Positions 11,406 to 61,700 of a stretch of 64,000 nt of DNA are shown piece after piece. Each line of letters begins with the position of its first letter. Within the stretch, counting starts at the first letter, position 1. The notes beneath the pieces are model-generated. The model was not told the DNA's origin. It saw only the letters and a list, made by a program, of their open reading frames with translations, and made no database searches. Source of the stretch: Kordia periserrulae (GTDB taxonomy: Bacteria > Bacteroidota > Bacteroidia > Flavobacteriales > Flavobacteriaceae); contig NZ_QBKT01000004.1 in NCBI RefSeq assembly GCF_003054265.1, positions 434,001-498,000 on the forward strand, in the 5' to 3' direction. A program made the translations under genes and the position numbers.

Positions 11406-12140
11406 ATGACGCTAGAAATCTGTGCAAACTCCTATCAATCTGCCATACAAGCTGAAACAGCAGGTGCGCAGCGTGTGGAATTGTGCTCCGAATTAGCAGT
11501 TGGCGGTATCACTCCTTCGTTCGGATTGCTTAAAAAAGTGATGAATACACTATCGATTCCTGTGCATGTGCTGATTCGTCCTAGAAGTGGCGATTTTACC
11601 TATTCAGATGCAGAATTTGACATCATGAAAACGAATATTGAATTGTGTAAAGAACTAGGCTGTGCAGGGATTGTTTCTGGAGTCTTGCATGATGATTTTA
11701 CAATTGACCTCAAACGAACACAGGAACTCATACAATTATCAAAACCGCTATCATTCACGTTTCATAGAGCATTTGATTGGACACCAAATCCAAAAAAAGC
11801 CATCAAAGAAATCATCAGCTTAAATGTGAATCGTGTGCTGACTTCCGGACAAGCAATTGCTGCCGAAAAAGGAATCACATTATTAAAAGAATTAAAAGAG
11901 ATTGCAAACAACAACTTGATAGTGATGCCTGGCGGCGGTATCAATCCTGAAAATGCAATGCTTTTTAAAGAACATGGTTTCACAGAAATTCACTGTTCGG
12001 CAACACAATCACACCAAATGATTCCTACGCCGAAAATTTCTATGAACAGTCAAAAACTCTTGTCAGATACACATATTGCCGTTTCTGATGCTCAAAAAAT
12101 CAAACAACTACTAGAACGCATTCAAACCAAAAATGACTAA
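11406..12140 (+). CDS. cutC: CutC-family protein
   Basis: The 244-residue protein begins MTLEICANSYQSA and continues with the family block GAQRVELCSELAVGGITPS. It later shows HVLIRPRSGDF, TFHRAFD and the MPGGGI glycine-rich segment, all characteristic of the CutC TIM barrel. CutC was named for copper homeostasis, but that role is disputed and the reaction is unknown. The frame extends 42 codons upstream to a TTG, but that part is charged and unlike any homologue, and a -7-like element lies inside it, so the ATG at 11406 is preferred. Its last 8 bases overlap the start of the beta-mannosidase gene, implying coupled translation. Confidence 0.9.
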   Translation: MTLEICANSYQSAIQAETAGAQRVELCSELAVGGITPSFGLLKKVMNTLSIPVHVLIRPRSGDFTYSDAEFDIMKTNIELCKELGCAGIVSGVLHDDFTIDLKRTQELIQLSKPLSFTFHRAFDWTPNPKKAIKEIISLNVNRVLTSGQAIAAEKGITLLKELKEIANNNLIVMPGGGINPENAMLFKEHGFTEIHCSATQSHQMIPTPKISMNSQKLLSDTHIAVSDAQKIKQLLERIQTKND

Positions 12141-44510: not shown

Positions 44511-46094
44511 TTAATCAATGTTAGGATTTGACGAAACTTCAATAAGTGGTACAGGCCATGTGTAATCTTCTGGTCCTCTTGCACCAACAGTATTTCCCCA
44601 AGCAATTCTGCAATATTCATCATACACACCTAAACGAGTTAAATCGAAAAAGCGATGTCCTTCCATGTGCAATTCAACACCGCGTTCTCTTAAAAGCTCT
44701 TCGCGGAAATCTTCCATTGTGAGTCCTGAATAATCCACATCGCCCAATCCTACTCGATTTCGTAGTGCATTAATATCTGGATTGGCTAAGGCAGGATTTT
44801 GATTGAGTTCTGCTAACGCTTCTGCGCGAAGCAAGTATACATCTGCCAATCTTATGACATGCCAGTTTTGCTGACTTGTATATTCAGTGGTCGCATCGGT
44901 GTCAATATATTTTCCTGTGAAGGTTACAAATAAATTTCCTACCGTAGTTCCATCTGATAATCTTGTGCGCATATAACCTGTTAAGCCTGAACCCAGTTGG
45001 TATGTGAATGTTTCATCTTGATATGAATTGATGACAATATCCGCGTAGCGAGGATCAAATTTATCAATACTATTGTTCACAAACGCAGGACGAAATCTGT
45101 TAACTCCTCCAAAACCACCGCCACTAAGACCAGCGTTTCTTGGACTATACAAGTTAGAAACCGCTGTTCCTTGTCCTGCAATAGAAGCGCCTTGAATTTC
45201 GAATAACATTTCAGGATTGTTTCCATTGGTGGCTTCAAAAATACTTTGATACTCTTGAAGATTAGTTGTTAACGCATAATACGGCTCTTGAAGCGTTGCG
45301 TTTGCTTCATCAATTGCTTTTTGATAATAAAATGATGGTGTGTTTGAAAGCACTAAATAGTTTGAATTACCTTCAACACCTGCTTGCGCTGTTCGTAACG
45401 ATGACGCCATTTGCACATACACTTTGGCAAGCATCGCATGGGCAGCAGCTTTGGTCACTCTTCCTACTTCGTTCGTTGTACCGTTTCTCACTTCGTTAAA
45501 GCCCCAACAATGCTGAGCAGCAAATTCTAAATCTGCAATAATAACGTTGTAAATATCTTCCAAAGGAGAAAGCGGTAAGCCTTCTTCACCAGAGGTCACA
45601 GGAGTGGTTCGCAATGGTACTTCGCCATAACATCTCACCAAATTGAAATAGTTTAAGGCTCTTAAAAAGCGAGCTTCTCCTATAATTCTCAATCGTAATT
45701 CTTCATCCATTTGTGGTACCTCTGGAACTCTAGCAATCACGTTGTTTGCATCTTTAATACACGCATAAATGTCAATCCAAGTTCGCTCAATTAGCGGTTC
45801 AGCGGAGGTGATAGTTCCTCTTCTAAAATCTCCGTGATTAAAACTTGATGGTCCTTGATCGGACGCTGCATGCAAATTTGATAAAAACTGCTGTCGGTAG
45901 TATCCATTCTGACTTTTGAGCTGCGCATACGCTCCAGACAATCCAGCTAAAGCATCCGATTCATTTTGATAAAACTCGTCAATATTTATTTGCGTTAATG
46001 GCTCTTCTTCTAGGTATTCACAACTCGAAAAAGTGATGCTACTTACAAGTAGTATGAATGTTATTTTTAGGTTGGAGATATGTATGTTTTTCAT
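44511..46094 (-). CDS. SusD/RagB-family glycan-binding lipoprotein
   Basis: SusD proteins sit on the outer membrane and form the lid of the SusC channel, binding glycan. The 527-residue protein has a lipoprotein signal with FSSC, then EYLEEEPLTQINIDEFYQNESDALAG, the usual SusD opening. TPR-type helices follow (ARFLRALNYFNLVRCYGEVPL), and the RELLRERGVELHMEGHRFFDLTRLG block near the end is diagnostic. It follows SusC by 11 bases in the same operon. Substrate specificity cannot be read from the sequence; the neighbours suggest a sulfated marine glycan. Confidence 0.95.
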   Translation of the reverse strand: MKNIHISNLKITFILLVSSITFSSCEYLEEEPLTQINIDEFYQNESDALAGLSGAYAQLKSQNGYYRQQFLSNLHAASDQGPSSFNHGDFRRGTITSAEPLIERTWIDIYACIKDANNVIARVPEVPQMDEELRLRIIGEARFLRALNYFNLVRCYGEVPLRTTPVTSGEEGLPLSPLEDIYNVIIADLEFAAQHCWGFNEVRNGTTNEVGRVTKAAAHAMLAKVYVQMASSLRTAQAGVEGNSNYLVLSNTPSFYYQKAIDEANATLQEPYYALTTNLQEYQSIFEATNGNNPEMLFEIQGASIAGQGTAVSNLYSPRNAGLSGGGFGGVNRFRPAFVNNSIDKFDPRYADIVINSYQDETFTYQLGSGLTGYMRTRLSDGTTVGNLFVTFTGKYIDTDATTEYTSQQNWHVIRLADVYLLRAEALAELNQNPALANPDINALRNRVGLGDVDYSGLTMEDFREELLRERGVELHMEGHRFFDLTRLGVYDEYCRIAWGNTVGARGPEDYTWPVPLIEVSSNPNID

Positions 46095-46105: not shown

Positions 46106-49100
46106 TTAGTAGTTAAAGTTTAATCCGAATGAATAGGTTTGTACGCCAGGGTAACCGCCAAAATCGACACCTCTACGTTGCGGGTCTTTATTAAATGTTG
46201 TCACTTCTGGGTCGTATCCAGGATAATCGGTAATTGTGATTAAATTTTGACCTGTAATGTAAAGTCTTAATTTGGTTCCTTTTTTAAAGTTGAAGGTATA
46301 TCCTAAATTCACGTTTTTTAGTCGTATAAACGAGCCGTCGTAAATGTTTCTATCGGATGGAATCGCTCTTGGACCAGCATTGATTAGTGGCGCAGGATTC
46401 CCAACGCCAGTAGTATTGCCCAAATTAGGATCGAAGAATACGTCTCCGTTTCCATCCACACCAAGTGGTGCTGTCCACGAATCTTCAAACGCAGAAGTAA
46501 GTCCGTTTCTAGAGTTTTGATTTCCTGTAATTGGCCACGCATCTACCCAAAAAATGTCGCCTCCTTTTTGTCCTGTTATTAAAGTTGTCAAATCCCAATT
46601 ACCATATTTGAAGGTATTATTGATTGCTATGGTAAAATCAGGATTCGGGTCTCCAATTTGCACATAATCGTCAAAGTTTATTTCTTGATTTGGCAATGGC
46701 TGACCGTTTGTATCAACATCTACAGAATTATTTACATATCGTATTTCGCCTGGCGCTGCACCAGCAATTCCACTAGCATTGGCTTCTTCCCAACTTTCAT
46801 AGATTCCATCAGTTTGCGCACCCCAAAAAATGCCCAATGGACTTCCTGTTCTGAATAAGATTGGATTGGTTTGTGCAAAACCTACGTTCGGTCCTAGTTG
46901 AAAGTCTAAGTTTGAGTTTAAGCTTTTTAAATTGTTTCTATTCAATGAAAAGTTCGTTCCGAAATCCCACTGAAATGTATCTGTATTGATGATGTTTGCA
47001 TTGAGCGCAATTTCTAAACCGTAGTTTTCAACTTCGCCAAAATTGTCTATAATCCTCACAAAACCATTAGATGGCGCAAGTATTACATTTTGTAACAAAT
47101 CACTGGTCAATTTATAATACGTATCCACCGTAACTCTGACTTTGTTATCTTTTAAACCTACATCCAAACCTGCGTTGAATTGATCTGTGATTTCCCATTT
47201 AAGGTTCGGGTTTGGAAGGTTGGTTTCTATAATTCCCGTAGTAATTTGTCCGTTAAAGTTGTATCGGATGGCTTCTCCAAGCGATAAAGATTGAAAAGGC
47301 GGAATAGCATCGTTTCCAACTCTACCATACGACAATCTAAATTTAAGGTCAGATATGGTTTTGGAATCTTTTAAAAATTTCTCGTCTGAAATTCTCCATG
47401 AGAATGCTGCAGAACCAAAAAAACGTGCTTTATTTCCTTCGGCTAATTTTGAAGATGCATCTACTCTGGCATTGAGGTCTAAGTAATAACGTCGTTTGTA
47501 ATTGTAGCCAAGTCTAAAGATTCCTGATAGTAATCTGCTGTTGATGAATCTAGATTCTGGTGGCAGAATATCGGTAGCCGCGCTTAAATCGTAAAATTGA
47601 AATGCATCACTTCCAAAACCAAATGCTCTGTTGAACATTGTTCGAATTCTTGCTTCTTCTACCGTTCCAATAGCAACTGCGTCAATTCGGTGTTTTCCAA
47701 ATCTGTTGCGATATCTTAAATTCACTTCACCGTACAGTTTTCTGTATTCTCTTGTGGCTTGTGAAGCTTCTCCGTTGTTGTTTCGTCCACGTGTTGTCGA
47801 GGTTGGATAGTAAATATCTCTAGAACTTTTTTGGAAATTGAACGCTCCTCGAACGATTCCTGTTAATTTGGGTGTAATTTTAGCCGTTACTCCTATATTC
47901 TGGATGAAATTATAGGATTCTTTCAAGTCGGTCACATCTCTTGCTAAGGTAAACGGATTGGATATCGGAGTTCCTTCATTCAAATCTGCATATACAGAAT
48001 CGTCTTGTCCTGGCTCTAATAAACTAAAGATTGGTTGAAATTGCAACGCTTGCGATACCACACCACGTTGTAAAAAGATTTCGCCATTTCCTACCGAAGA
48101 AGCATTTCCTTTGTTGTAGGCGATATTCGTTTTCGAGAAGATATCTATTTTGCCATCAAACGCTTTTCTTTGTCCGTTTACGTTGAGTGTAATTCTTCTA
48201 TTGTTGGTGTTTATGATGACTCCTTCTGTATCTTGAAGACCTAAGCTCACAAGAAAGTTCCCTTTGTCATTTCCGCCTCTGTACGACAGATTGTACGCTC
48301 TTGAATACGCTTGTCTGTATATTGCATCTTGCCAGTCTGTATCCACGCCTGTTGAAACTGGAAAAGGAATGGTAAAACCATCTAGTTGCGGATAGTTTGC
48401 AATGGTTAAGTCTTGCGTTCCATCAAAAGGATTAGTATTGTTTGCTGGATTTGTAATGTCTACATACAATTGATTGATGGCTCTTTGATTCATATAACGT
48501 TCAAACGTTGGTCCATTCATCACATCTAATTTATTGGTCGTGGTTGTGATGAAGTTATCAATGGTTACCGTAAGATTGTCTCTTCCATCAGATTTCCCTC
48601 CTGTTTTGGTCGTAATGAGTACGACTCCATTGGCTCCTCTTGCTCCATACACCGCAGTGGCAGCAGCATCTTTTAACACTTCAACTTTTTCAATGTCGTT
48701 TGGATTGAGAAAGCTCAACGAGTTTTGCGATTGTCCCGACGCACCATTTCCTTGTGCATCTTCCAAAGGATCGACAGGCAAACCATCTACAATATACAAC
48801 GGTTGTGTTCCTCCAAGAAAAGAGTTCGTTCCTCTGATAGCGATGGAAATACCGCCGCCAGGTTCGCCATTTTCGGTTACGACAACACCTGCTACTTGTC
48901 CTTGCAATAATTGCTCAACAGTCTGGGTTCTGTTTTTTTCTAATGTTTCAGAAGTAACTTGCGCAATACTCCCCGAAAGGTCTCTTTTGTTGACATCAAA
49001 ATATCCTGTACTGATGGTTACTGCATCTAATTGAGTGACATCAGGTTGTAGCGTAATGTTTATTACTGCTGATTTGTCAACAGTTACTTCTTGTGTTTGT

Positions 49101-49321
49101 TTTCCTATGAATGAGAATACTAAGACATCGCCTTTGTTGGCTTTGATTTCATATTTTCCAGAGAAATCGGTAGTAACACCTTTGGATGATCCTTTAATGT
49201 AAACCGACACGCCTGGTAGCGTAATGTTCGTTTCTGCCTCATTCACAGTACCACTTATCGTAAGCTCTTGTGCTACTAGTGTCATTGGCAGTATGAGAAG
49301 TAAATAAATTAGATGTTTCAT
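46106..49321 (-). CDS. SusC/RagA-family TonB-linked outer-membrane transporter
   Basis: The 1071-residue transporter has a signal peptide, a carboxypeptidase-regulatory-like N-terminal domain (ISGTVNEAETNITLPGVSVYIKG), a plug domain with GANGVVLITTKTGG and SIAIRGTNSFLG, then a 22-strand barrel with the C-terminal FGLNFNY ending. It imports oligosaccharides with energy from TonB. The short plug/TonB-box region is normal. It lies 32 bases after the third putative hydrolase and 11 bases before SusD, so hydrolases, SusC and SusD are one operon. The large size and repertoire are usual for a SusC. Confidence 0.95.
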   Translation of the reverse strand: MKHLIYLLLILPMTLVAQELTISGTVNEAETNITLPGVSVYIKGSSKGVTTDFSGKYEIKANKGDVLVFSFIGKQTQEVTVDKSAVINITLQPDVTQLDAVTISTGYFDVNKRDLSGSIAQVTSETLEKNRTQTVEQLLQGQVAGVVVTENGEPGGGISIAIRGTNSFLGGTQPLYIVDGLPVDPLEDAQGNGASGQSQNSLSFLNPNDIEKVEVLKDAAATAVYGARGANGVVLITTKTGGKSDGRDNLTVTIDNFITTTTNKLDVMNGPTFERYMNQRAINQLYVDITNPANNTNPFDGTQDLTIANYPQLDGFTIPFPVSTGVDTDWQDAIYRQAYSRAYNLSYRGGNDKGNFLVSLGLQDTEGVIINTNNRRITLNVNGQRKAFDGKIDIFSKTNIAYNKGNASSVGNGEIFLQRGVVSQALQFQPIFSLLEPGQDDSVYADLNEGTPISNPFTLARDVTDLKESYNFIQNIGVTAKITPKLTGIVRGAFNFQKSSRDIYYPTSTTRGRNNNGEASQATREYRKLYGEVNLRYRNRFGKHRIDAVAIGTVEEARIRTMFNRAFGFGSDAFQFYDLSAATDILPPESRFINSRLLSGIFRLGYNYKRRYYLDLNARVDASSKLAEGNKARFFGSAAFSWRISDEKFLKDSKTISDLKFRLSYGRVGNDAIPPFQSLSLGEAIRYNFNGQITTGIIETNLPNPNLKWEITDQFNAGLDVGLKDNKVRVTVDTYYKLTSDLLQNVILAPSNGFVRIIDNFGEVENYGLEIALNANIINTDTFQWDFGTNFSLNRNNLKSLNSNLDFQLGPNVGFAQTNPILFRTGSPLGIFWGAQTDGIYESWEEANASGIAGAAPGEIRYVNNSVDVDTNGQPLPNQEINFDDYVQIGDPNPDFTIAINNTFKYGNWDLTTLITGQKGGDIFWVDAWPITGNQNSRNGLTSAFEDSWTAPLGVDGNGDVFFDPNLGNTTGVGNPAPLINAGPRAIPSDRNIYDGSFIRLKNVNLGYTFNFKKGTKLRLYITGQNLITITDYPGYDPEVTTFNKDPQRRGVDFGGYPGVQTYSFGLNFNY

Positions 49322-49353: not shown

Positions 49354-51795
49354 TTATTTTTTGACTAGTTTGTGTGTGCTGAAATTGTTATGAATATCTT
49401 TCAATCGCACTATATACATTCCTTTTGCAAGGTTTTGAATGTTGATGTTTTGGTGTAATTCTACTTGATAGGTATGTATACGTTTTCCTTGAAGATTGTA
49501 AATTTCAACCTTATCAATGACGGTTTTTGAAGTGATTGAAATACTATCTTTTGCAGGATTTGGAAAAATATGTGTATCAGTATTGAAATCTTTTTCAGAT
49601 GTAGATAACAAAGCAGACCATTGCTCCATCAAGAACGTAGCAGCATAGCCCATTGAGCCGTTAGGCTCTAGCATCCATTTACCGTCCATCCATTGGTATA
49701 AAAAGCTGTCGTCATATTGTGTGTCTTTTTCCCAAGTAAAACCATTTGGTGCACCTTGTTGACCAGAACAATATAAATTCCATAGATAAAAGTTTTGAAT
49801 GCCTAAGTCTAAAGCGAGTCCAATATATCGTCCATAATTGTTTCTGATATCGGGTTCAGTCAAACTCGTATACGGTGGATTTTCATTATGCGCAAATTCT
49901 CCAATTTGCACAGGTATTCCGCTTTGAATGGCGCCCGTAGAGGTTGTGTAATAGTCTGCAATATGAATCCCTTTCCACATAAGATGTCCTACAGGATTGT
50001 TGGTATTTGTCCAATTGCTGTCATACGCAGACCAAGAAGTTAAATCGATACGCACTTTCGGAACCACATCTCCTAAAACTGAAGGCACGTTGTAATACAT
50101 CATGGTTTGTCCATTTTTCCATAGTTTATTGAATTCGATAGCATGATATACTTTTGCGTTGCTACTGGAAAATTGATTTCTGGCGCGTTCTGTACCGCGT
50201 TGTCTAGCTCTGAACATTCGCGCCATACCTTCAATGCTCCAATCCACATCATCCGGAATAAGAGACGCGTCATTTTCCCAAGCAACACCTTCGCCTCTAA
50301 GCATCCAATCGCCTTCCCAGTTTTGATACACAAACTTTTTGTCCATTGTACCATATGTACTCAGTAAATGCATGGTTAAATCGTAATATTGCTGTTCTTG
50401 CTCTAAGTATTTGTCATGATCAAAGTCAGGACCGTTTTTGTAATGCGATTGATTTTTAGGTGTTGTCCAAAACGTATGCGTTTTTATGTGTGTTCTTTTA
50501 AAGAGTGAATCAATGTACTCATGCTCTGCCACTTCTTTTAAGTTTTGAAAATTTGGCCACGAATGGTTGAAATGATACGCGTTGTACATTCTGCCATTTA
50601 CTGAGGTAAGTGTGGTTTTTACTGCAGTAGAACCAAAATTTCTATAATAATCCAATCCTTCTAGCAAATACGGTCTGGTGGTAAAGTTGTACCATCCTGC
50701 AATGTGAGAAAAACCAAAAATATCTTGTATTTGACTTACATCTGCGCCCAAATTTGGATCGTATGCGTCAATTCTAGACGTGATTTGCGCTTTTGTCGGT
50801 GTCGTATAAATGTAATGTTGCTTTAGTGTTCCGCCGTTATTGGTAAAGGTGAAGTTTGGATTGTTGGACGTAAGATTGCTAAAGTAGGCTTCTTTCCATA
50901 ATTTAAACAATCCGCCATTTTCAAGAGTGAGATTGAAACCGCCTGCTTCTGAAGTCACGTTCAATACACCTTGATTGATTGTTTGAGGGAACAGACTTCC
51001 TCTGTTTCGTATGGTAAGTGAGGTAAATTCTCCAAGCGTTGTATTTTTAGTAAAAAGACTCACGTTTCCTGCCACAACTACACCTTCAATAATTAGGCTA
51101 GATTTTGCTGTTGGAGAGCTAAAATCGTAGGTACTTCCTGTTAATCCTAGTGTATTTTTAATATTGAGGTATGCATATTCTTTAATGGTCGCATTGACGC
51201 GATTGTTGGATTTTATCGCAAAGTTTTCATCAATAACAATGTTATAATGATCAATAATCAAATCTTTTTCACCTGAATTACTTGCAATGCTCAATGCTTT
51301 CGGATTGAAATATCCTGAACCTGACACATAGGTTGTTGCTTGTGTAAGATTTAAGAAGATACGACTGTTAAAGCTATAAATAGCCCCATCGCCACTGCCA
51401 CTTGGGAGATTTCTTCCTGCTGAAAATGTTCCATTACATAAAATGCTTCCGTTGATTCTTAAATCTTTTGCAAAATTGGCTGTGTTGTGTCCCATTTGTA
51501 ACACAGCGTCTTGCTTCACGAAAAGGTTTTCGCAAAGGTCTACAATTTGACCAGAACTTGCGCCTTGTATGTCAATATATACCGTATGCCCGTTTTCAAT
51601 GATTACATGCGTTGATGACGACGGTACCATACCATTGCTCCAAATCGCAGGATTGCTCCAGTTTCCGCTATTTATTGTAGATACTGCATTGGTAAAGTCA
51701 ATAGTTTGATCACTTAGTAAAGGTAATTGCGCTTGTGCAGTGATACAGCTCAACAGAATGCTCAACGTCAGATATTTTAGGTTCGAAATGTTCAT
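49354..51795 (-). CDS. Putative GH-A-clan hydrolase, third paralogue, with G8-like N-terminus and T9SS tail
   Basis: The 813-residue secreted protein has a signal peptide ending AQAQ and a roughly 280-residue N-terminal beta-helix region with G8-like WSNGMVPSSSTHVIIENGHTV. Then comes a TIM-barrel domain homologous to the next two genes: YQNWEGDWML holds Glu494 and IGEFAHNE holds Glu633. A type A T9SS sorting domain ends the protein (FPNPAKDSISI ... NLAKGMYIVRLKD). Glu on strand 4 with NWE and Glu on strand 7 with GE fit the acid/base and nucleophile of clan GH-A retaining enzymes. I cannot name the GH family. The T9SS tail places it on the cell surface. Confidence 0.75.
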   Translation of the reverse strand: MNISNLKYLTLSILLSCITAQAQLPLLSDQTIDFTNAVSTINSGNWSNPAIWSNGMVPSSSTHVIIENGHTVYIDIQGASSGQIVDLCENLFVKQDAVLQMGHNTANFAKDLRINGSILCNGTFSAGRNLPSGSGDGAIYSFNSRIFLNLTQATTYVSGSGYFNPKALSIASNSGEKDLIIDHYNIVIDENFAIKSNNRVNATIKEYAYLNIKNTLGLTGSTYDFSSPTAKSSLIIEGVVVAGNVSLFTKNTTLGEFTSLTIRNRGSLFPQTINQGVLNVTSEAGGFNLTLENGGLFKLWKEAYFSNLTSNNPNFTFTNNGGTLKQHYIYTTPTKAQITSRIDAYDPNLGADVSQIQDIFGFSHIAGWYNFTTRPYLLEGLDYYRNFGSTAVKTTLTSVNGRMYNAYHFNHSWPNFQNLKEVAEHEYIDSLFKRTHIKTHTFWTTPKNQSHYKNGPDFDHDKYLEQEQQYYDLTMHLLSTYGTMDKKFVYQNWEGDWMLRGEGVAWENDASLIPDDVDWSIEGMARMFRARQRGTERARNQFSSSNAKVYHAIEFNKLWKNGQTMMYYNVPSVLGDVVPKVRIDLTSWSAYDSNWTNTNNPVGHLMWKGIHIADYYTTSTGAIQSGIPVQIGEFAHNENPPYTSLTEPDIRNNYGRYIGLALDLGIQNFYLWNLYCSGQQGAPNGFTWEKDTQYDDSFLYQWMDGKWMLEPNGSMGYAATFLMEQWSALLSTSEKDFNTDTHIFPNPAKDSISITSKTVIDKVEIYNLQGKRIHTYQVELHQNINIQNLAKGMYIVRLKDIHNNFSTHKLVKK

Positions 51796-51799
51796 TCTT

Positions 51800-53035
51800 T
51801 TATATTTTGTTAAAATGACTTTTTAATACATCTTTATATACCGTGTCTAAAACACGTAAGGCTTCTTTCGTAAAAGTTTCCCGATCTGGATAGGTTTGGT
51901 GTTCCGCTTTGTACGACTTTAGATATGAGTTGATGGCTTTATAATAGTTGTGATGAAGGTAAAACACGGGCATTTTTTCGCCTTTTTCATTGATTAAAGA
52001 CATATTTTTGGAAGCGCCGTCTTTTCGGTATTCGTTGTTATATAGTTGCCAATGCAACACAAACGGCAAATCCAATTCCAACGAAATTTGCATAATGTCT
52101 TTTACATTGTTGAATTGTCTTAGAAATGTTTCTGGCTTATCATCAAAAGCGTGACCGCCATATTCGCCAATAAACACACGTCTTTTAAAAGGCAAGCCTT
52201 CTTTCGGTTTGAGTTGTGATTCAATGTAATTGAGCACGTTGGTAAGCGATGCTTTGTTGGTTTCGTAATCTTTTTTCTTGCTAGATTCATAACTAGAATA
52301 CGATACAAAGTCAGCATCTACATGTGGCAAGATATCTTTGGTGACGCACGTATTGCCTTCCATACCTTTTACCGCCAAATTTACCTCAACATAGTAATAC
52401 AATTGCACGTTTTCATAAGCAATGGTACGTTTGGCATCATTGATGGCACGCGCTCTTATTTGCAACCACTTGGTCATGTTTTGTACATCTTCTTGTGAAG
52501 GAATGGACTTCTTTTTCATCTGCGGATGTAACAGCCAATCACCTTCCCAATTTCCAATGAAGAAGGTTTTTCCAGTATTGTTGTAAGTAGTTAAAAGGTG
52601 TTTTGTGAAATCGTACATTTCTTTGTACAACATGTCTTCTTGTGCCTTGCTGATGCCTTTTTTCCACTTGATTCCAGTAGCTGTGTGAAACCACATAAAG
52701 TAGTATTTGAAATCCATTTGAAAGACTTGATCATAATCAGGAATTAAATCAATCACGTCCATCATGTCGTATACGTCTTCATTTTTAATTCCGTAATCTT
52801 TCAACACTTTTTTAGAGACCGATATTTTCAAAATGTTAGAACCCAGCGCTCTTGTTTGTTTGGCTTGTTCGATGATTTTGGTATCGTCCGTATGCTGATA
52901 TTTTGTGTAGAAACTATTCGTTCCCAAGACAACATTGTAATCTTCCAGCGGAAATAGTTCGCCATCAAATTTCTTTTGTCCAAAACTTAGACTCGCCACA
53001 CAAAAACAGATACATGCAATTATATATTTCATCAT
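51800..53035 (-). CDS. Putative GH-A-clan hydrolase, second paralogue
   Basis: The 411-residue protein has a signal peptide ending SLSFGQ and one catalytic-type domain. The candidate acid/base is Glu164 in GNWEGDWLL and the nucleophile is Glu291 in FIGEYGGHAF. DADFVSYSSYESSK and FVLHWQLYNNEYR mark strands 6 and 8 of the barrel. Between paralogues the NWEGDW, VSYSSY and GEYG segments are shared, while the loops differ. It starts with an ATGA overlap of 4 bases with the preceding gene and is followed 4 bases later by the third paralogue. Periplasmic or surface location; substrate unknown. Confidence 0.75.
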   Translation of the reverse strand: MMKYIIACICFCVASLSFGQKKFDGELFPLEDYNVVLGTNSFYTKYQHTDDTKIIEQAKQTRALGSNILKISVSKKVLKDYGIKNEDVYDMMDVIDLIPDYDQVFQMDFKYYFMWFHTATGIKWKKGISKAQEDMLYKEMYDFTKHLLTTYNNTGKTFFIGNWEGDWLLHPQMKKKSIPSQEDVQNMTKWLQIRARAINDAKRTIAYENVQLYYYVEVNLAVKGMEGNTCVTKDILPHVDADFVSYSSYESSKKKDYETNKASLTNVLNYIESQLKPKEGLPFKRRVFIGEYGGHAFDDKPETFLRQFNNVKDIMQISLELDLPFVLHWQLYNNEYRKDGASKNMSLINEKGEKMPVFYLHHNYYKAINSYLKSYKAEHQTYPDRETFTKEALRVLDTVYKDVLKSHFNKI

Positions 53036-54336
53036 TTTTGGGTTTTTAAACTGTTGAATTGTAAAGCTGCTTTTTGAAACGTGTCAAAGCTTGGTAATTG
53101 CTGATATTTCTCTACATATTGCTGTAAAAAAGCATTTGTTTCTTTGTAAAAGTTGTAATGTGTATGCCAAATAGGTTGTTTTTTTCCTTTGTCTGTAATC
53201 AACCAATAGCCTATTTGCTCGCCTGTTTTTGCTTTAATTTCGTTGTTGTACATTTCCCAGTATAGAATGAACGGCGTTCCCCATTCCAACGCTGCTTTGA
53301 TTGTCCAAATAGAACGACGATTTTGCATTTCATCCGAAAATTTAATGCTCTGATTGCCATATTCGCCAATCCAAACACGTTTCCCGCTAGGTAAGTTTGG
53401 TTTTGGAGCTAATTTACTTTCTAAGTAGTCTAATGATTTTTGTAAGTTCTTTTTTAGTGCTTTTTCTGTTTTGTACGGATTTGTCGCATCGTAAGAAGAA
53501 TACGACACATAATCTGGATTTACAGCACCAAGGATGTTGTTGGTTACAGATACATAGTTAGGCTCTTCTAAAGATTTACGCACCAAATTCACTTCTATAT
53601 AATGATATACTTGTACGTTGTTGTGTTTGGTATCTCTTTTGGCATCGTCAATCGCTTTTTGTCTTGTCTGTGCCCAAGCGGTCATGCCTTCCAGTGTTTT
53701 TAAGTTGGCAGGTTTTGTACGATCGTAATCTGAACGCAAGTGCCAATCACCTTCCCAATTCCCAAGATAAAATGTTTTTCCTGTATTGTTATAGGTTTTT
53801 AATAAATGTGTCGTGAGGTCATAAATTTCTTTATACAGTGCGTCCTGATATGTTTTTGAATATCCATTAATAAACTTAATCTGTGCTGTATCATCTTTTT
53901 CACCAATAGGTTCTTCTGTGTATTGAGAGAAACCGTATACCCAAATATGATAATAGGTAAAATCCATGTCCAATACTGCTTTTACAGAAGGTTCTAAAGT
54001 TGCCAACTTTGTCAAGGAATTGATTGCATCGTTTTTTGGAAGTCCGTAATTTTCTGTACAATACCGCGGATGCATGGAAAATTTAAGCAAATTAGAACCC
54101 ATACTTTTGATTTGCTTTGCCGTTTCCACAAGCATGGTTTCTTCAGTAAACTTATATTTTGAGCCTACTGTTTGGGTTCCGATGACATAATTAAACTGAG
54201 TAATGTCGGTACGCGGCTCATTGAGGTTCGTAACAGCTACATCTGATTTTGACTGCGACATCGCTTTTTTACAAGAATACATTCCTAAGCAAAGGCACAG
54301 AAAAAAAGAAATACGTATGAAAAATGGCTTGTTCAT
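53032..54336 (-). CDS. Putative GH-A-clan hydrolase, first paralogue, lipoprotein
   Basis: From the ATG at 54336 the 434-residue protein has a lipoprotein signal with GMYSC. An in-frame start 12 codons upstream would put a charged peptide before the signal and is rejected. The barrel contains LGNWEGDWHL (Glu195), DYVSYSSYDAT and WIGEYGNQSI (Glu325), equivalent to the other two paralogues. The final segment LYWEMYNNEIKAKTGEQ aligns with the second paralogue. It heads an operon with the other two and with SusCD. The three proteins differ in anchoring: lipoprotein, plain secreted and T9SS-secreted. No known GH family can be assigned. Confidence 0.75.
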   Translation of the reverse strand: MNKPFFIRISFFLCLCLGMYSCKKAMSQSKSDVAVTNLNEPRTDITQFNYVIGTQTVGSKYKFTEETMLVETAKQIKSMGSNLLKFSMHPRYCTENYGLPKNDAINSLTKLATLEPSVKAVLDMDFTYYHIWVYGFSQYTEEPIGEKDDTAQIKFINGYSKTYQDALYKEIYDLTTHLLKTYNNTGKTFYLGNWEGDWHLRSDYDRTKPANLKTLEGMTAWAQTRQKAIDDAKRDTKHNNVQVYHYIEVNLVRKSLEEPNYVSVTNNILGAVNPDYVSYSSYDATNPYKTEKALKKNLQKSLDYLESKLAPKPNLPSGKRVWIGEYGNQSIKFSDEMQNRRSIWTIKAALEWGTPFILYWEMYNNEIKAKTGEQIGYWLITDKGKKQPIWHTHYNFYKETNAFLQQYVEKYQQLPSFDTFQKAALQFNSLKTQK

Positions 54337-54593: not shown

Positions 54594-57500
54594 TTACAAA
54601 CTATCTATGAATTCTTTGGGTGTTTTGTTGTAATGCTTTTTAAATAAAGTACTGAAATATTTAGGGTCGTGAAATCCAGATTCGTAGGCAATGTCTGAAA
54701 TACGAGTGAATCGCTTCTGTTTCATCAATTCTTCTGCTTTGTCGAGCTTTATCTTCAAAATTAAATCCGAAGGCGACATTTGTATGAGTCCTTTCAGCTT
54801 TCTAAATAGGTTGGAACGACTCAATCCCATCATTTCGCAAAGCGTATCAATAGAAAAATCTTTGTTGGTAATGTTGTCTTTGATAGAATCTATGACTTCC
54901 GATAGAAAACGTTCGTCAGGTGTTAGATTTTTGGTGACTTCTTCATCGCCCAAAATTTGCCTTACATTTTCTCTAGAATTGATGAGGTTTTTGATGGTTG
55001 CTTTTAAAATGTCTACGTTGAGTGGTTTTTCTACATAAGAATCTGCACCTGTTTCCAATCCTTTTATTTTATCTTCCATATCGGCAAGTGCCGTGAGCAT
55101 AATGACAGGAATGTGACTCGTTTTGAAGTTGCTTTTCAACAGTTTACAAAGCTCTTTTCCGTCCATCACAGGCATCATGATGTCTGTAATGATTAAATCT
55201 GGATTTTTTGACAGTGCTTTTAACAACCCTTCTTTTCCGTTTGTGGCTTCAATGATGGTAAAGTTGTCTTGCAGTGTCGTTTTTACCGCTTGTCGAAGTT
55301 CATCGTTGTCTTCTACCAATAAAATGAGCTTGTTTTTCGCTATAAATTGATCAATATCTTTTGTTTCTTCACCTACAGATTTTTCATGAATGATATCTTC
55401 ACTGTTGTAACTTTCTTTTCCATTAGGAAGCACTACGGTAAAGATAGAGCCTTCGTTTTCTTTGCTTTCAAGAAGTATTTTTCCGCCGTGTAATTCTACA
55501 ATTTTTTTGGAAAGCATCAATCCTATTCCCGTACCAGGTATTCCTTTGTTAGATACATTGGTTCCTCTGGTAAAGCGCTTAAAGATAAGGTCTAGCTGTT
55601 TTTCTGGAATTCCAATTCCGTTGTCTTTAAACGATATTTTTAAGTTTTTATCATCCAAAAAAGAACTAATCGTAATTTGACCGCCTTCTCCGGTATATTT
55701 GATTGCGTTGGAGATGATATTGTAAAAAATACGGCGCATTTTTGGCACATCAAACCAAACTGAGAGATGTTTGACTTTGAGCTGAAGTGTAATTTGTTTT
55801 TCGTTTAAAATTGGAGTGAAATCGCTGGTTATTTTTGCCAAACAATCTTTTAAATCAATTTCACTAATGTTGAGTTTTAGCTGTTTGTTGTCTATTTTCT
55901 GAAAATCTAGCAATTGCGTAACATATTCGTTCAAGTTTTGGCTGTTGCGTTCAATCAGTTTTAGCGATTCTTCCGTATTTTCTTGTGTGTGTAATTGTTG
56001 TACTAAAAGTTGAATGAGCGAAACTGGCGTTCTAATGTCATGAGCTACATCGACAAAGAATTTAATCTTATTCTCGTTGAATTTTTTGCGATTGTTCGCT
56101 TCTGAAACTCTATACATTAAATACCCAATTGTGAAAAAGGTGAGAATGTAAATAGCGTACGCGAGATAGGTTTTCCAAAACGGTTTTTTGATGTTGATGC
56201 TGATGGTTTTTGTATCTGATTTTACACCATCAGCGTTGTAACCACTATAGGTAAGCACATAATCACCAGGTTCAAGATTGGAATAGGTGATTTTTTCGTC
56301 TGTGTAACTATACCGTACGTTTTCATCATAGCCTTTCAATTGCCATTCAAACAAATTACGCGTTGCGCCGTGAAATTTTAACGCTTCAAAATTGAACGAA
56401 ATGGAATTGTTGTCATACGGCAATTGCAAGGTTTTCGTATAGTTTATGTTTTTTGCCAGTAAAGTGGAATCTGGCTCCTTTCCATTGATTGTAAAATTTT
56501 TGATGTGTATATTTTGAATCGGTTGGTCTAGTTCTAAATTCAACGGATTGAATATGGTAGCTCCTTTTGGGCCGCCAAACGCAATGCGTCCGTCTTTTAA
56601 AAGTGCGGTTGCTCCAAAACCAAAACGTTCGATAAGAAGTCCGTCGTTACTGTCAAATTTTCTAAAAATCTCTTTTTTAATATCGTATCGCCAAAGTCCA
56701 GACAGACACGATAGATACAAATTATTTTGATTGTCTCTTTGAATTGAAAATACCGTTCGTATCTGCGATCTGAATTTTTCTCCGATTGCTTCCACTGTTT
56801 CTGTACGGAGATTGAATTTGTAAAGTCCTTTTTTAGTGCCAATCCAAATACAGTTGTTTAATCTGTCAAAATTCAAATGATAACATTCGTTGGAAGAGTT
56901 AAAAATGTCTTTTGCCAAACGTCGAAAGCTCGCATTACGATTGTTGATTTCAAACAATCCAGCACTAGATGCTACGTATACAATATCGTCAAATCCTTCA
57001 ACGACAAAGCGCTCCACGCCCATTGGATAGTTGTTTAATAACTGACCATCTTTGTAGTGTGACAATGGGCCGTCACTCGCACCAATCCAAAGATCATTTT
57101 TAAACTTGTTGATATGAAAGACGAAATCTAACGGAAGTTTTTCGCTCAATTTGACTTCAGTGACAACATCATCATTCAGTGCCAGAATTCCTTCGCCATA
57201 CGTTCCTAACACTAATTGATCTTTGAAACTATTGATTGCCAATACAGCGGTATTATACAGTTTTGGGTTTTTGTTGTAGTTTACCCAATTTCCTTCTTTC
57301 AATTTGCTCACGCCATTTTCAGTCCCAAACCACAACGCGTCATCTGCTCCTTCGTAAATCGCTCTGATAGAGTTGTTACTGATACTATTATTATTATCTC
57401 TGATGTGAAAGATATTCGAAAAAACACTGTCTTTTTCATACACGATATTCAGTCCGCCATCTTGTATTCCCAACCAATACGCATTGGTGTCGTCTACATA

Positions 57501-58397
57501 AATTTCGTAAATACCATTTTGCGTAAGTGAGTTGTCATTATCGGCTTCGTGCGTATAATTTTTAATTACGTTTCCGTCTTCATCCAACACAAAAAGTCCC
57601 AATCGGTCTACCGCGACTAAAACTTTGTTGTAGGTATCAAAAGCTATTTTTCGGATTGCATAGGTTTTGTTTTCTATTTTGGAAAGTGTTTTTTGCGTCA
57701 GTTCGTCATGCTGTAATATGAACAACCCACCAACTTCCGTCCCAATCCAACATCTTCCTTGCTTGTCAATTGTAAAGTGAATAATATCTTGCTCGGTGAT
57801 AATTTTTTTCTCTACGGTTAGTGTTTTTGAAGATTGATTGTACGTAAAACTGAAAAAACCTTTAGAGGTTCCTGAATAAATTTTTCCGTCGTAAAATCGA
57901 ACTGTTTTATTTAGAATAATGTCTTTATGAAGAATTTCGGATGCAGTATTGTTCGCTAAATCATAGATTATAAAGCCAGAAGCCAAACCAATGATAAGTT
58001 GCTCGTCCGTAATTTTGTCGAATGATAAAAAAGTAGCGCCTTGCAGGGTAAAGAGTGTTGTAAAGGTGTCATATTCATACTCATATTTAAATAGAGTTCC
58101 GTTATGACTTATGAGATACAATTCGCCTTTTATATTTTTAATGGCAACAATTCCTCTACCAACAATGTCTTCGTTATTGGGAAACTCGTAATTTTTTAAG
58201 GCTGTTCCAGCATACTTTTTTAAACCTTGCTCCGTGCCTATCCAAAGATAGCCAAGACTGTCTTTTTCGATGGTATTTACCGTTGCATCTATGAATTCTT
58301 GTTTCGGGTCAATACGTTTTATTTGCTGACTATATGCCGTAAGACTGATAAGAAGTATGAGGGAAAACCAATACTTATTTGCATAATATTTTATCAT
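54594..58397 (-). CDS. Hybrid two-component system sensor/regulator (HTCS)
   Basis: The 1267-residue one-protein regulator senses a glycan fragment in the periplasm and activates the locus. It has a signal peptide ending TAYSQ, a large N-terminal two-component propeller (repeats with IWIGTKKGLYKF type segments), a Y_Y_Y domain (about 690-738), a membrane helix at 743-763, a HisKA domain with His786 in AHDIRTP, a HATPase domain (DNGIGIP and GTGIGLML), a receiver with Asp1072 in ITDIMMP, and an AraC HTH from about 1165. It sits between the sulfatase and the hydrolase-SusCD operon. The usual target is the SusC operon promoter. Confidence 0.95.
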   Translation of the reverse strand: MIKYYANKYWFSLILLISLTAYSQQIKRIDPKQEFIDATVNTIEKDSLGYLWIGTEQGLKKYAGTALKNYEFPNNEDIVGRGIVAIKNIKGELYLISHNGTLFKYEYEYDTFTTLFTLQGATFLSFDKITDEQLIIGLASGFIIYDLANNTASEILHKDIILNKTVRFYDGKIYSGTSKGFFSFTYNQSSKTLTVEKKIITEQDIIHFTIDKQGRCWIGTEVGGLFILQHDELTQKTLSKIENKTYAIRKIAFDTYNKVLVAVDRLGLFVLDEDGNVIKNYTHEADNDNSLTQNGIYEIYVDDTNAYWLGIQDGGLNIVYEKDSVFSNIFHIRDNNNSISNNSIRAIYEGADDALWFGTENGVSKLKEGNWVNYNKNPKLYNTAVLAINSFKDQLVLGTYGEGILALNDDVVTEVKLSEKLPLDFVFHINKFKNDLWIGASDGPLSHYKDGQLLNNYPMGVERFVVEGFDDIVYVASSAGLFEINNRNASFRRLAKDIFNSSNECYHLNFDRLNNCIWIGTKKGLYKFNLRTETVEAIGEKFRSQIRTVFSIQRDNQNNLYLSCLSGLWRYDIKKEIFRKFDSNDGLLIERFGFGATALLKDGRIAFGGPKGATIFNPLNLELDQPIQNIHIKNFTINGKEPDSTLLAKNINYTKTLQLPYDNNSISFNFEALKFHGATRNLFEWQLKGYDENVRYSYTDEKITYSNLEPGDYVLTYSGYNADGVKSDTKTISINIKKPFWKTYLAYAIYILTFFTIGYLMYRVSEANNRKKFNENKIKFFVDVAHDIRTPVSLIQLLVQQLHTQENTEESLKLIERNSQNLNEYVTQLLDFQKIDNKQLKLNISEIDLKDCLAKITSDFTPILNEKQITLQLKVKHLSVWFDVPKMRRIFYNIISNAIKYTGEGGQITISSFLDDKNLKISFKDNGIGIPEKQLDLIFKRFTRGTNVSNKGIPGTGIGLMLSKKIVELHGGKILLESKENEGSIFTVVLPNGKESYNSEDIIHEKSVGEETKDIDQFIAKNKLILLVEDNDELRQAVKTTLQDNFTIIEATNGKEGLLKALSKNPDLIITDIMMPVMDGKELCKLLKSNFKTSHIPVIMLTALADMEDKIKGLETGADSYVEKPLNVDILKATIKNLINSRENVRQILGDEEVTKNLTPDERFLSEVIDSIKDNITNKDFSIDTLCEMMGLSRSNLFRKLKGLIQMSPSDLILKIKLDKAEELMKQKRFTRISDIAYESGFHDPKYFSTLFKKHYNKTPKEFIDSL

Positions 58398-58442: not shown

Positions 58443-60044
58443 TTAATTATGAGGTTGTTCCACATGCTTCTGCATCTTTTTAGAATTCTTTTTTGTGTTT
58501 TCTCGAGCTTCGGAAAGTAAGCAATCAATAGAAGTGTACGAAAAGTTTTCTTCTTCCAGTTTTTTCTTTTTTGCTGAAGGCACTTGTGTTTTTAACCACC
58601 AATCTCTATCCGTGTTGTACTTGTATTTTAGTTTAAGTGCTTCCAATTCCTTACGAAGTTGTGCTTCAATCGCATCATATTCAGGGTCATTTATTAAATT
58701 GTTCATTTCACCTGGATCGTTTTCAAGATTGTACAACTCGTCAATATCATCTTCCAAAAAGGCATCCACAAGCTTGTATTTGTCATTTTTTATCGCCAGC
58801 ATATTAGGTCCTGCGTACGGATATTCATCATCCACATAATATTCAAACATAAAAGCATCTCGCCAGTTTTGCTCAGTGCCTGCTAATAGATTTACCATAC
58901 TTTCTCCTTGCATATAGCTTGGCTTTTCGATTCCTGCAAGTTCTAAAATTGTAGGTGCCAAATCAATATTTAGTGCATTCGAAGCAATCTTTGTGCCTGG
59001 CTTAATTTTTTCCGGATATCGTATCAACATCGGAATTTTCATTGAGTTTTCATACGCAATACGTTTGTCCCAATATCCGTGTTCGCCCATAAAATAACCG
59101 TTGTCACTACTGTAAATAATCACGGTATTGTCTAGTTCTCCCATTTCTTCTAAGGTAGCCAATACTTCTCCTAACGACTCATCTACCGCAAGTAAGCATT
59201 CTAATAGTTTTTTGAACTTATAGCCTTTGATCGGCCACGGTTTTGGTGCCAATGTATCTGACGGAATGTATTCTTTCCACTTGTGATCCCACGCTTTTAA
59301 ACGTTGCCATTCAGGTTTGCCCGCAAAATTCTCCAAGTGCTGATTGTACGGCGGCGTTGGTAAGGAATCGTTTTTAAAAATTTTGTTATGTCTCGGTGCG
59401 GGCGAATGATCTTCGTGAACGGCTTTATGCCACAAATTTAAGCTGAAAGGTTTGGTAGGATCTCTTTTTTCTTTGAGCCACGTGATTGCTTTGTCCGTAA
59501 GAATATCAGTCATATAGCCTTTTTCTTGATATTCTTTTCCGTTGTCGTTTACCATAGGATCGAAATACTCTCCTTGTCCAATAAAACTAAACCAATAATC
59601 AAAACCAGGTCTGATATGCTGTTCGTTTCTGTAATGCGCCATGTGTATTTTACCGACGTGCGCCGTTTGATAACCTGCGATTTGAAGGTGTGCATTGTAC
59701 GGTTGAAAATCTTTCCAATTAGGATCTACATGTTTGTTATTTTGATTTACGCCATGAATGTGCGGATAGGTTCCTGTTAAGAAGCTTGCTCTCGAAGGCG
59801 AACAGATGGATTGCGTTACATAGTAGTTTTCAAACTTTGCACCTTCATTAATCAGTCGCTGCATGTTGGGCGTTTTTAGGAACGGATAGCGTCCGCTGTC
59901 TTCCAAAGCATCAAAAGGTTGATCGTCTACCAAAATAAACAGAAAATTAGGTTGTTTTTTTCGAGGTGTTTCCACATTTTTATTTTTACAACTTGTCAAA
60001 ATAAAAGTCGAAATTATAAGTAATGTAAAAGATACATATTTCAT
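58443..60044 (-). CDS. S1-family sulfatase, lipoprotein
   Basis: The 533-residue enzyme should remove sulfate esters from a carbohydrate. A lipoprotein signal with ILTSC precedes FLFILVDDQP, the metal-binding start of the sulfatase fold. The signature CSPSRASFLTG holds the cysteine that is converted to formylglycine. Later blocks include AHVGKIHMAH, VIIYSSDNGYFMGEHG and a late GEMNNLINDPE. As a Cys-type enzyme it needs a formylglycine-generating enzyme encoded elsewhere. It is flanked by the symporter and the sensor, in the minus-strand operon. The sulfatase subfamily and substrate position are not known. Confidence 0.93.
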   Translation of the reverse strand: MKYVSFTLLIISTFILTSCKNKNVETPRKKQPNFLFILVDDQPFDALEDSGRYPFLKTPNMQRLINEGAKFENYYVTQSICSPSRASFLTGTYPHIHGVNQNNKHVDPNWKDFQPYNAHLQIAGYQTAHVGKIHMAHYRNEQHIRPGFDYWFSFIGQGEYFDPMVNDNGKEYQEKGYMTDILTDKAITWLKEKRDPTKPFSLNLWHKAVHEDHSPAPRHNKIFKNDSLPTPPYNQHLENFAGKPEWQRLKAWDHKWKEYIPSDTLAPKPWPIKGYKFKKLLECLLAVDESLGEVLATLEEMGELDNTVIIYSSDNGYFMGEHGYWDKRIAYENSMKIPMLIRYPEKIKPGTKIASNALNIDLAPTILELAGIEKPSYMQGESMVNLLAGTEQNWRDAFMFEYYVDDEYPYAGPNMLAIKNDKYKLVDAFLEDDIDELYNLENDPGEMNNLINDPEYDAIEAQLRKELEALKLKYKYNTDRDWWLKTQVPSAKKKKLEEENFSYTSIDCLLSEARENTKKNSKKMQKHVEQPHN

Positions 60045-60054
60045 AGTTATAGGT

Positions 60055-61683
60055 TTACCAGTACATAATTAATGTGATGAAACAAAACACAAGCAGCGCA
60101 AGAGACCAAAATCGGTAACTTTTCAATAGCGGAACACTTTTTAAACTCGCCGTTTCTTTTTTAAATTCACTCACAGAAAACACCAATCCTTCTGTTTTTT
60201 CAAGTGGTGGCTTTTTGGTTGCCAAACTCACTAGAACCATCACTAATAAGCTCCATAAAAAGTAGAACGGAACGGTAAGCAAAAAGTGAATATCTCCAAA
60301 AATAGAGTGTCCAACTTGTACAGAATATATGATATTGCCAATTCCTAAGGCGATTCCTGCCATTAAACCAGAAAAAGCGCCTACGGCATTGGTTCGTTTC
60401 CAAAAAATACCTAAAATGAAAGCTGCCACGATTGGCGGAGCCATGATTGAAAGCATTTCTTGGTAATATTTGAGCAATGTACCAAACTGTTTTCCAATTT
60501 GTGGTGCCCAAAATACGGCAATGACTAATACTGTTATGGACGCTATTTTACCAACTCTCACCTTCTTTTTTGAAGTACTGTGCGGTACCATTTTATCGTA
60601 AAAATCCATCGTGAAAAGTGTTGCCACAGAATTTAACAATCCGCTTAACGATGATGTAAGTGCCGCTACCATCGCCGCCATCATAAAGCCAATAAGCACA
60701 TTAGGCAGTAATTCCATGATAAGGTTCGGATAGACCATATCTGGTTTTGACAATCCTGGAAATAGGTCAATCGCCATAATCCCAGGAATGATGATAACGA
60801 ATAAGGTCAATACCGTTAGAAAACCTACCAACAACACTCCTTTTCTACCTTCATCTAGGTTTTTGGCAGTTAAAACACGTTGTACCAATTGTTGATTGTT
60901 TCCCCAGAAAAATAAGCCTAAAATCGGAATTCCTACCAACGCACCCAACCAAGGCACGGAAGAATCTTCCATAGGGCGAACCAATTTCATTAAAATATCT
61001 CCTTCTACTAAAAGTTGTTTTACGTACGCTGCGCCGCCATTATAGGTAGCATACAGCGTAAGCACGATTGAGCCGACCAATAGAAAGATTCCTTGCATTA
61101 AATCTACCCGAATTGCTGCCGACAATCCACCAGGAATGGTATATGCCGCCACTATAACGGCAAATATTACAGATAAGGTAAAGATAGAAACCTCTGGAAA
61201 TACTAATTTCATAACAATCGCAGCCGCGTAAAGCGAACCTGCTGCATCCAGAAAAATATTAACGATGATGGTAATGGCAGAAAAATAGTAACGAGAGGCA
61301 ACGTTGAATCGTTTTTCCAAAAATTCGGGAATCGTAAATATCTTTGATTTGATGTAAAACGGCAGTATAAACCATGCAAAAAATATCATAACGACTACCG
61401 ACACAAGGTTGTAATTGAATACCGCTATTCCTGTACTGTACGCATCGCCTGCCTGACCAATTAAGGTAGAACTTGAAATACTTGCTGCAAATAGCGAAAA
61501 TCCTATTACGGGCCACGTCATGCCTCTTCCCGCTAAGAAATACGATTTTTCATCTTTACTTTTACTATATCGTATCCCAAGGTATACAACAAACAAAAAG
61601 TATAAGACAATAATTAGTATATCGGCCCACGAGAGACCATTTACCCAACTTGGGCCTTCTGTTATAAAATTTCCTGATTGCAT
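60055..61683 (-). CDS. Sodium:solute symporter (SSS family), sugar-type
   Basis: From the ATG at 61683 the 542-residue membrane protein has about 14 helices, the SSS fold with the LeuT-type core. Recognisable segments are FLAGRGMTWPVIGFSLFAASISSSTLIGQAGD, which contains the sodium-site serines, and VRVGKIASITVLVIAVFW. It probably imports a monosaccharide or disaccharide into the cytoplasm. A longer frame from 61755 would overlap the GH130 gene by 55 bases and puts polar residues before helix 1, so it is rejected. It lies 17 bases after GH130 and 10 bases before the sulfatase. Confidence 0.9.
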   Translation of the reverse strand: MQSGNFITEGPSWVNGLSWADILIIVLYFLFVVYLGIRYSKSKDEKSYFLAGRGMTWPVIGFSLFAASISSSTLIGQAGDAYSTGIAVFNYNLVSVVVMIFFAWFILPFYIKSKIFTIPEFLEKRFNVASRYYFSAITIIVNIFLDAAGSLYAAAIVMKLVFPEVSIFTLSVIFAVIVAAYTIPGGLSAAIRVDLMQGIFLLVGSIVLTLYATYNGGAAYVKQLLVEGDILMKLVRPMEDSSVPWLGALVGIPILGLFFWGNNQQLVQRVLTAKNLDEGRKGVLLVGFLTVLTLFVIIIPGIMAIDLFPGLSKPDMVYPNLIMELLPNVLIGFMMAAMVAALTSSLSGLLNSVATLFTMDFYDKMVPHSTSKKKVRVGKIASITVLVIAVFWAPQIGKQFGTLLKYYQEMLSIMAPPIVAAFILGIFWKRTNAVGAFSGLMAGIALGIGNIIYSVQVGHSIFGDIHFLLTVPFYFLWSLLVMVLVSLATKKPPLEKTEGLVFSVSEFKKETASLKSVPLLKSYRFWSLALLVFCFITLIMYW

Positions 61684-61700
61684 AGTTTGTTGGTTTTTAG

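Follow-up and report, generated by a model that had tools for sequence, protein, structure and literature searches.

The 64,000-nucleotide (nt) stretch of Kordia periserrulae analysed here, hereafter the window (contig NZ_QBKT01000004.1, positions 434,001 to 498,000), shows three tandem genes of a real and conserved protein family which, by sequence comparison, has no name in Pfam, NCBIfam or the PDB sequences, CAZy being outside the comparison. The proteins are probably (roughly 0.6) retaining glycoside hydrolases of clan GH-A type, unassigned and remotely related to GH39, within a SusCD locus targeting a sulfated glycan that contains beta-linked mannose. The sequence family, the predicted fold of the second copy, the strand positions of its glutamates and the gene neighbourhood are established directly here, and activity and substrate are inferred from them. 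The three genes are:

53032..54336, minus strand: copy 1, 434 amino acids (aa) from the ATG; GH-A-like barrel with predicted acid/base E195 and predicted nucleophile E325; N-terminal export or anchor segment, possible lipoprotein.
51800..53035, minus strand: copy 2, 411 aa; single GH-A-like barrel with predicted acid/base E164 and nucleophile E291; E217 also invariant; Sec-type signal (by eye).
49354..51795, minus strand: copy 3, 813 aa; beta-rich N-terminal domain (approximately residues 30-350), weakly modelled barrel (approximately 355-730) with E494/E633, and sorting tail of the type IX secretion system (T9SS; 743-813).

Copies 1 and 2 overlap by 4 nt, copies 2 and 3 are separated by 4 nt, and the SusC gene starts 32 nt after copy 3. 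A first-pass annotation, made from the letters of this DNA alone, had reported the motifs NWEGDW and GE(Y/F) in the three adjacent genes, and its residue numbers, Glu-Glu spacings (130, 127 and 139 residues in copies 1, 2 and 3), order and overlaps were all reproduced. In a three-way alignment, which spans the whole barrel, identity to the 411-aa protein is 43% for the 434-aa protein and 25% for the 813-aa one. No match to the Bacteroidota-type promoter pattern was found 5' of the three genes, and in the window this pattern is no commoner than chance.

A conserved family outside the libraries

Relatives were collected by a pattern-led scan of one genome per species (84,980 species), which yielded 252 stretches. 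A relative is encoded in 151 of these, and the best 80 were retained, corresponding to 78 loci (prefix L). The family set contains 74 members: 71 locus rows and three window rows (alignment A2, whose copy-3 row starts at approximately residue 306). Seven of the 78 loci are outside A2: L023 is a near copy of L021, L027, L034 and L073 are truncated by contig ends, L050 and L064 have a broken frame, and L070 contains an N run. Neither the three proteins nor any of the 74 members shows a convincing match to a catalytic family of Pfam or NCBIfam (best E 0.002), and the only strong library matches are those of T9SS models to the tail of copy 3 (to 1e-13). The 20 families that at least one member matches at E 0.1 do not include the models for GH39 (PF01229), GH5 (PF00150), GH2 (PF02836) and GH99. 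Several candidates from these scans were too weak: TatD_DNase (seven members, best E 0.002), rSAM_Geo_metal (five members, 0.013), GST_C (three members, 0.016) and Glyco_hydro_25 (one member, 0.044). The family profile finds nothing below E 1.2 among PDB sequences, and five sequences at E 10; weak and partial PDB sequence matches to a protein phosphatase (E 0.049) and to TatD (E 1.2) were judged to be chance. No paper linkable to the family and no mention of the NWEGDW motif appear in the literature searched, a weak negative since few subscription journals or preprints were covered. The earlier statement that the proteins could not be matched to a named family thus holds in Pfam, NCBIfam and the PDB sequences.

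A quick tree of 114 distinct rows places the three window copies in three separate supported clades, copy 3 being the most divergent, although long-branch warnings accompany this tree, one of which concerns the copy-3 clade. Relatives of each copy are found at the same position in clusters of Flavobacteriaceae and Marinilabiliaceae. Since the copies align over the whole barrel and occupy three clades of one tree, with relatives similarly placed elsewhere, the shared motif pattern is not due to chance, and on sequence grounds the three proteins are paralogues.

Predicted fold and catalytic residues

The AlphaFold2 model of copy 2, built from the 74 aligned sequences, is a TIM barrel (pLDDT 94.1, pTM 0.90) with strands at residues 37-40, 68-73, 111-116, 157-161, 211-218, 243-247, 287-292 and 326-328. 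E164 is located three residues past beta4 (157-161), E217 at the end of beta5 and E291 at the end of beta7. The best 50 matches of Foldseek and the best 50 of VIA, which is a re-alignment of Foldseek's own matches, share approximately 8-15% identity with copy 2, and we take all of them to be clan GH-A barrels, for example GH39 PslG, GH164 beta-mannosidase, GH1, GH5_18 and GH2. The top VIA match shows a Z of 21.0 and a root-mean-square deviation of 3.6 over 299 aligned residues. Enzymes of GH99/GH71 type, considered owing to a paper on sulfated mannan, are not among the best 50 matches of either search, which excludes nothing. The model and both searches agree with the GH-A-type barrel proposed in the first-pass annotation.

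Among the 114 distinct rows (121 minus five short and two identical ones), E164, D166, E217, N219 and S247 are each present in 114, and E291 in 112, the other two rows ending before it. A simple motif search overlooked the GE in 16 of 116 rows, and the column count found the Glu in all but the two truncated ones. The invariance of WEGDW is partly built in, because the pattern [GQ]NWEGDW contributed to finding the loci; that of E217, N219, S247, Y249 and E291 is independent of the search pattern. A divergent homologue found by hidden Markov model (HMM) search alone (E 2.2e-22) keeps NWEGD, the Glu of E217, YSSY and GE, and differs in the last Trp of the motif. Since it lies outside the search pattern and yet keeps NWEGD, the motif is not merely a search artefact.

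In hhalign, the family profile scores 43.5 against GH39 (13 sequences; E 1.6e-4 for a single comparison), whereas 13 other profiles (GH5, GH2 and 11 neighbour families) reach at most 24.6 and ten column-shuffled GH39 profiles at most 18.2. E291 aligns with the invariant Glu of GH39 and also, at low significance, with that of GH5, both of which are taken as the nucleophile. The model suggests a GH-A fold with a plausible catalytic pair, in which E291 (E325 in copy 1, E633 in copy 3) would form the glycosyl-enzyme and E164 (E195, E494) would act as acid/base. In retaining enzymes of clan GH-A the two carboxylates typically lie approximately 5.5 Angstrom apart. The structure prediction that the first-pass annotation had proposed as a check places E291 and E164 of copy 2, by strand position, at the ends of beta7 and beta4.

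Copy architecture and export

The T9SS tail of copy 3 (PF18962, E 1.4e-13) is present in all 13 proteins of this type that were scanned, namely that of the window and 12 relatives. In the copy 3 model, the N-terminal domain block shows pLDDT mostly of 85-94 over approximately residues 30-350, with dips to 56; this domain has no fold match among the best 50, and a weak G8-domain match occurs in four of the 13 copy-3 proteins at E 0.01. GH71 is among the weak fold matches of the 813-aa model. A copy-3-clade protein of 1385 aa, encoded in the Marinoscillum locus (L022:11333-15487), combines a bacterial Ig domain with a T9SS tail. Copy 2 relatives show ordinary Sec signals at the N-terminus (by eye). 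The lipobox of copy 1 is non-canonical (Met-Tyr-Ser-Cys), and 16 of the 21 copy 1 relatives examined lack a Cys within residues 1-58, mostly showing a hydrophobic N-terminal segment.

A different anchor for each copy, and a division of work between surface and periplasm, had been suggested at first pass. The T9SS tail of copy 3 and the Sec signal of copy 2 stand, as does the separation of copy 3 from copies 1 and 2; the lipoprotein anchor of copy 1 would at most apply to the window protein and a few relatives. Since most copy 1 relatives do not share this anchor, the safe wording is that copy 1 is membrane-side or periplasmic, copy 2 Sec-exported and copy 3 T9SS-secreted.

Gene neighbourhood

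Next to the three genes, the window shows the following genes:

44511..46094, minus strand: SusD-type glycan-binding protein, 527 aa (PF07980, PF14322).
46106..49321, minus strand: SusC-type TonB-dependent transporter, 1071 aa (TIGR04056, 749 bits against a cut-off of 368).
54594..58397, minus strand: hybrid two-component system regulator (HTCS), 1267 aa (Reg_prop, Y_Y_Y, HisKA, HATPase, response regulator and AraC helix-turn-helix).
58443..60044, minus strand: sulfatase 1, 533 aa (PF00884; best PDB relative the N-acetylglucosamine (GlcNAc)-6-sulfatase 5g2v).
60055..61755, minus strand: sodium:solute symporter (SSS) family (PF00474; TIGR00813 above cut-off).
61701..62726, minus strand: GH130 beta-mannoside phosphorylase family, no signal peptide seen (PF04041; best PDB relative the 1,2-beta-oligomannan phosphorylase 9fj8).
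63009..63998, plus strand: first part of sulfatase 2 (526 aa in L082); a third sulfatase and ManA lie beyond the window end.

Adjacent SusC and SusD genes thus occur with a sensor and degrading enzymes, as in a SusCD polysaccharide utilization locus. Beyond the window end, and divergent, are the rest of sulfatase 2, sulfatase 3 and a class I mannose-6-phosphate isomerase (ManA; 161.5 bits against a cut-off of 116.2), followed by an opposite-strand esterase gene and one for a SIS-domain protein. The latter (L082:7368-8186), of the glucokinase-regulator type and presumably MurQ-like, lies after the ManA and esterase genes near the contig end. Just downstream of SusD, a gene at 42438-43931 (minus strand) encodes a protein of 497 aa that combines a T9SS tail with a Chlamydia PMP-type repeat and has no enzyme match at E 1e-5. 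A GH2 gene with mannosidase-type Ig domains (PF17753, PF17786) is located at 12133-14664 (plus strand), approximately 35 kb from the nearest family gene; it possibly encodes a beta-mannosidase used with the family enzymes.

Neighbour families were clustered with strict coverage in 79 sources, the 78 loci and the window, which was counted whole (64 kb). Sulfatases are found in 39 sources, SusC and SusD in 26 each, HTCS in 23, GH130 and GH2 in 17 each, SSS in 11 and GH116 in four. Because of the distance of the window GH2, its close count is 16 of the 78 loci. Four locus pairs share a contig (L010/L019, L011/L015, L040/L063 and L058/L067); L058 and L067 show the same GH130 gene, and the 17 GH130 sources therefore contain 16 separate genes. 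The GH130 counts are low because the stretches end approximately 10 kb from the match, and in four more loci (L013, L018, L021 and L022) a GH130 lies at or just past the stretch edge. The family itself is recovered by the clustering in 74 of the 79 sources, the other five probably missing it through frame choice or fusion. GH130 was also searched in 18 hand-picked genomes, those of 17 loci of named isolates and the window genome: nine of their 38 GH130 genes lie within approximately 13 kb of the family, against an estimated 0.3 expected. In Marinoscillum and in the window genome (at E 1e-10) the GH130 near the family is the only one found.

Occurrence

According to record titles, the loci belong to Bacteroidota, Verrucomicrobiota, Pseudomonadota (Sphingomonas, Legionella and others), Armatimonadota, Planctomycetota, Lentisphaerota, Kiritimatiellota, Myxococcota and Hydrogenedentota; many come from metagenome bins, whose taxonomy may be wrong. 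HMM searches found the family in two of 395 genomes of the class (one being the window genome), in one of 395 of the phylum (the window genome; this sample overlaps that of the class), in one of 11 genomes of the genus (again that of the window) and in three of 298 genomes of the family to which Yeosuana belongs, each of which the pattern scan had already found. Since the family is rare in these genomes, the locus is accessory.

The Legionella and Tatlockia records L075, L076 and L078 contain short family members, that of L075 beside a major facilitator superfamily (MFS) sugar transporter. In two gammaproteobacterial metagenome-assembled genomes (L039:3830-9285 and L061:1620-7100) the family gene follows a mirror-image arrangement, in which genes for an acyl-CoA dehydrogenase and an AraC-type regulator are repeated to either side of an Hcp (type VI secretion) gene; protein families of this arrangement were scanned in L039 only.

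Proposed function and alternative explanations

A sulfated, mannose-containing substrate, as guessed at first pass, is suggested because GH130, sulfatases and ManA share the neighbourhood; together they point to beta-linked mannose in a sulfated glycan that possibly also contains GlcNAc. Copy 3, exported by the T9SS, would cut the polymer at the cell surface, and SusCD would import the pieces. The sulfatases and copies 1 and 2 would trim these in the periplasm, and the SSS symporter would carry a short beta-mannoside into the cytoplasm. There, GH130 would phosphorolyse the beta-mannoside to mannose 1-phosphate, and ManA would connect mannose 6-phosphate to central metabolism. A wider proposal, which we put slightly below an even chance, is that the proteins represent a new clan GH-A family at CAZy level (signature WEGD / E-x-N / SSY / GE; nine phylum-level groups), whose old triplication in Bacteroidota provides a surface-to-periplasm set for an undescribed sulfated glycan of beta-mannan type.

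Several observations weigh against GH39-related hydrolases of a sulfated, mannose-containing glycan. The hhalign probability for GH39 is no more than 50%, and its alignment pairs E164 with the Asn of WNEP rather than with the Glu; GH5 and GH2, tried as parent families, score 24.6 and 22.7, inside the control range (small alignments). The 813-aa model is weak in the barrel, and its fold search gives one match at E 0.001 or better. The window GH130 scores below every NCBIfam equivalog cut-off. Nine of the 18 genomes have no GH130 nearby (four have none at all and five have it elsewhere), and in 39 of the 79 sources the stretch examined contains no sulfatase and no GH130; for these reasons the substrate could vary from branch to branch. 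Most of the Bacteroidota clusters are orthologues of one another and are counted as one event, not as independent ones. A second event is found in Verrucomicrobiota, with GH130 and sulfatases near the family and another transporter and regulator.

The same family and chemistry could operate with another catalytic pair, E217 of beta5 with E291, or with participation of D166, and E164 would then only bind substrate. E217, N219 and D166 are as invariant as E164, E217 ends a strand in the model, and the GH39 profile alignment leaves E164 one position ahead of the known acid/base. In clan GH-A, however, the acid/base sits on beta4, which E164 follows by three residues; it is usually preceded by Asn, a feature that is not defining, and here the preceding residue is Trp. 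This alternative is considered quite improbable. Of the pair named at first pass, E291 is supported as nucleophile by the GH39 alignment; for E164, which aligns with the Asn, the role of acid/base is no more than probable. Loss of catalysis in one or more copies, which would then serve as binding proteins, is very improbable. Tandem paralogues can diverge, and copy 3 has a Gly at the position of E335 (95 Glu and 14 Gly among the 114 rows), but every readable row, copy 3 included, retains E164, E217 and E291, and their counterparts are present in 13 of 13 copy-3 proteins.

It is rather unlikely, though more than a formal alternative, that the GH-A barrels act on a glycan other than beta-mannan, for example a sulfated polymer containing GlcNAc, galactose or glucose with mannose as a minor part. 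Among named PDB entries, the GlcNAc-6-sulfatase 5g2v is closest to two of the three sulfatases (for sulfatase 2 it comes second, after the unnamed putative sulfatase 9s03), sulfatase 3 is nearest to the N-sulphoglucosamine sulphohydrolase 4mhx, and the L-galactose-6-sulfatase 7lha is among the PDB matches of sulfatases 1 and 2. Other loci have GH2 and GH116 genes close to the family, and a search of two Pedobacter and two Legionella genomes found no GH130. A mannose-containing substrate is favoured, however, by GH130 genes close to the family in two phyla whose operon layouts differ, and by ManA in the window cluster. Finally, the novelty may be only apparent, the proteins belonging to a known CAZy family without a Pfam, NCBIfam or PDB entry so far. 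GH194 is reportedly another recently published family, a sign of ongoing naming. GH195 is a further example (PMC13063451), and CAZy itself was not part of the comparison; the lack of a convincing Pfam, NCBIfam or PDB match for the 74 members and of NWEGDW in the literature searched makes this explanation unlikely.

If the family consists of GH-A-type hydrolases of a sulfated, mannose-containing glycan, a nameless conserved enzyme family hides part of the sulfated polysaccharide use by marine, freshwater and soil bacteria. The catalytic hypothesis, the context pointing to mannose and the three natural paralogues make a chemically elusive glycan testable through its enzymes.

Comparison with known systems

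North Sea Flavobacteriia also have GH130 in utilization loci, but PMC6298971 describes these loci as containing GH26 and draws them as targeting non-sulfated beta-mannan; no GH26 was seen among the window cluster genes scanned, which contain sulfatases and unassigned barrels instead. The sulfated alpha-1,3-mannan locus of Polaribacter resembles that of the window in combining sulfatases and mannose-active enzymes in a marine Bacteroidota locus (PMC13063451). Four of its enzymes are active: two sulfatases, GH92 and GH195, which is described as related to GH99. One of its sulfatases, of subfamily S1_11, acts on mannose 6-sulfate, and 5g2v is placed in the same subfamily (PMC13063451). The two loci differ in that GH92 is not among the window cluster genes scanned, which include the beta-mannoside-active GH130.

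Among enzyme families, GH39 (PslG, BcGH39 and beta-xylosidases) differs from the family described here by an identity of only about 10-13% in the structural rows, by the lack of a PF01229 match in the 74 members (E 0.1) and by its acid/base motif WNEP, replaced here by WEGDW; it shares the barrel fold and the nucleophile position, and its profile is the only tested one above the controls, at an hhalign probability of 50%. The GH164 beta-mannosidase of Bacteroides salyersiae shows a TM-score of approximately 0.5 and no GH164 chain among the PDB sequence matches at E 10, but it has the same barrel fold, a high Foldseek rank and, as its sugar, the one suggested by the gene context.

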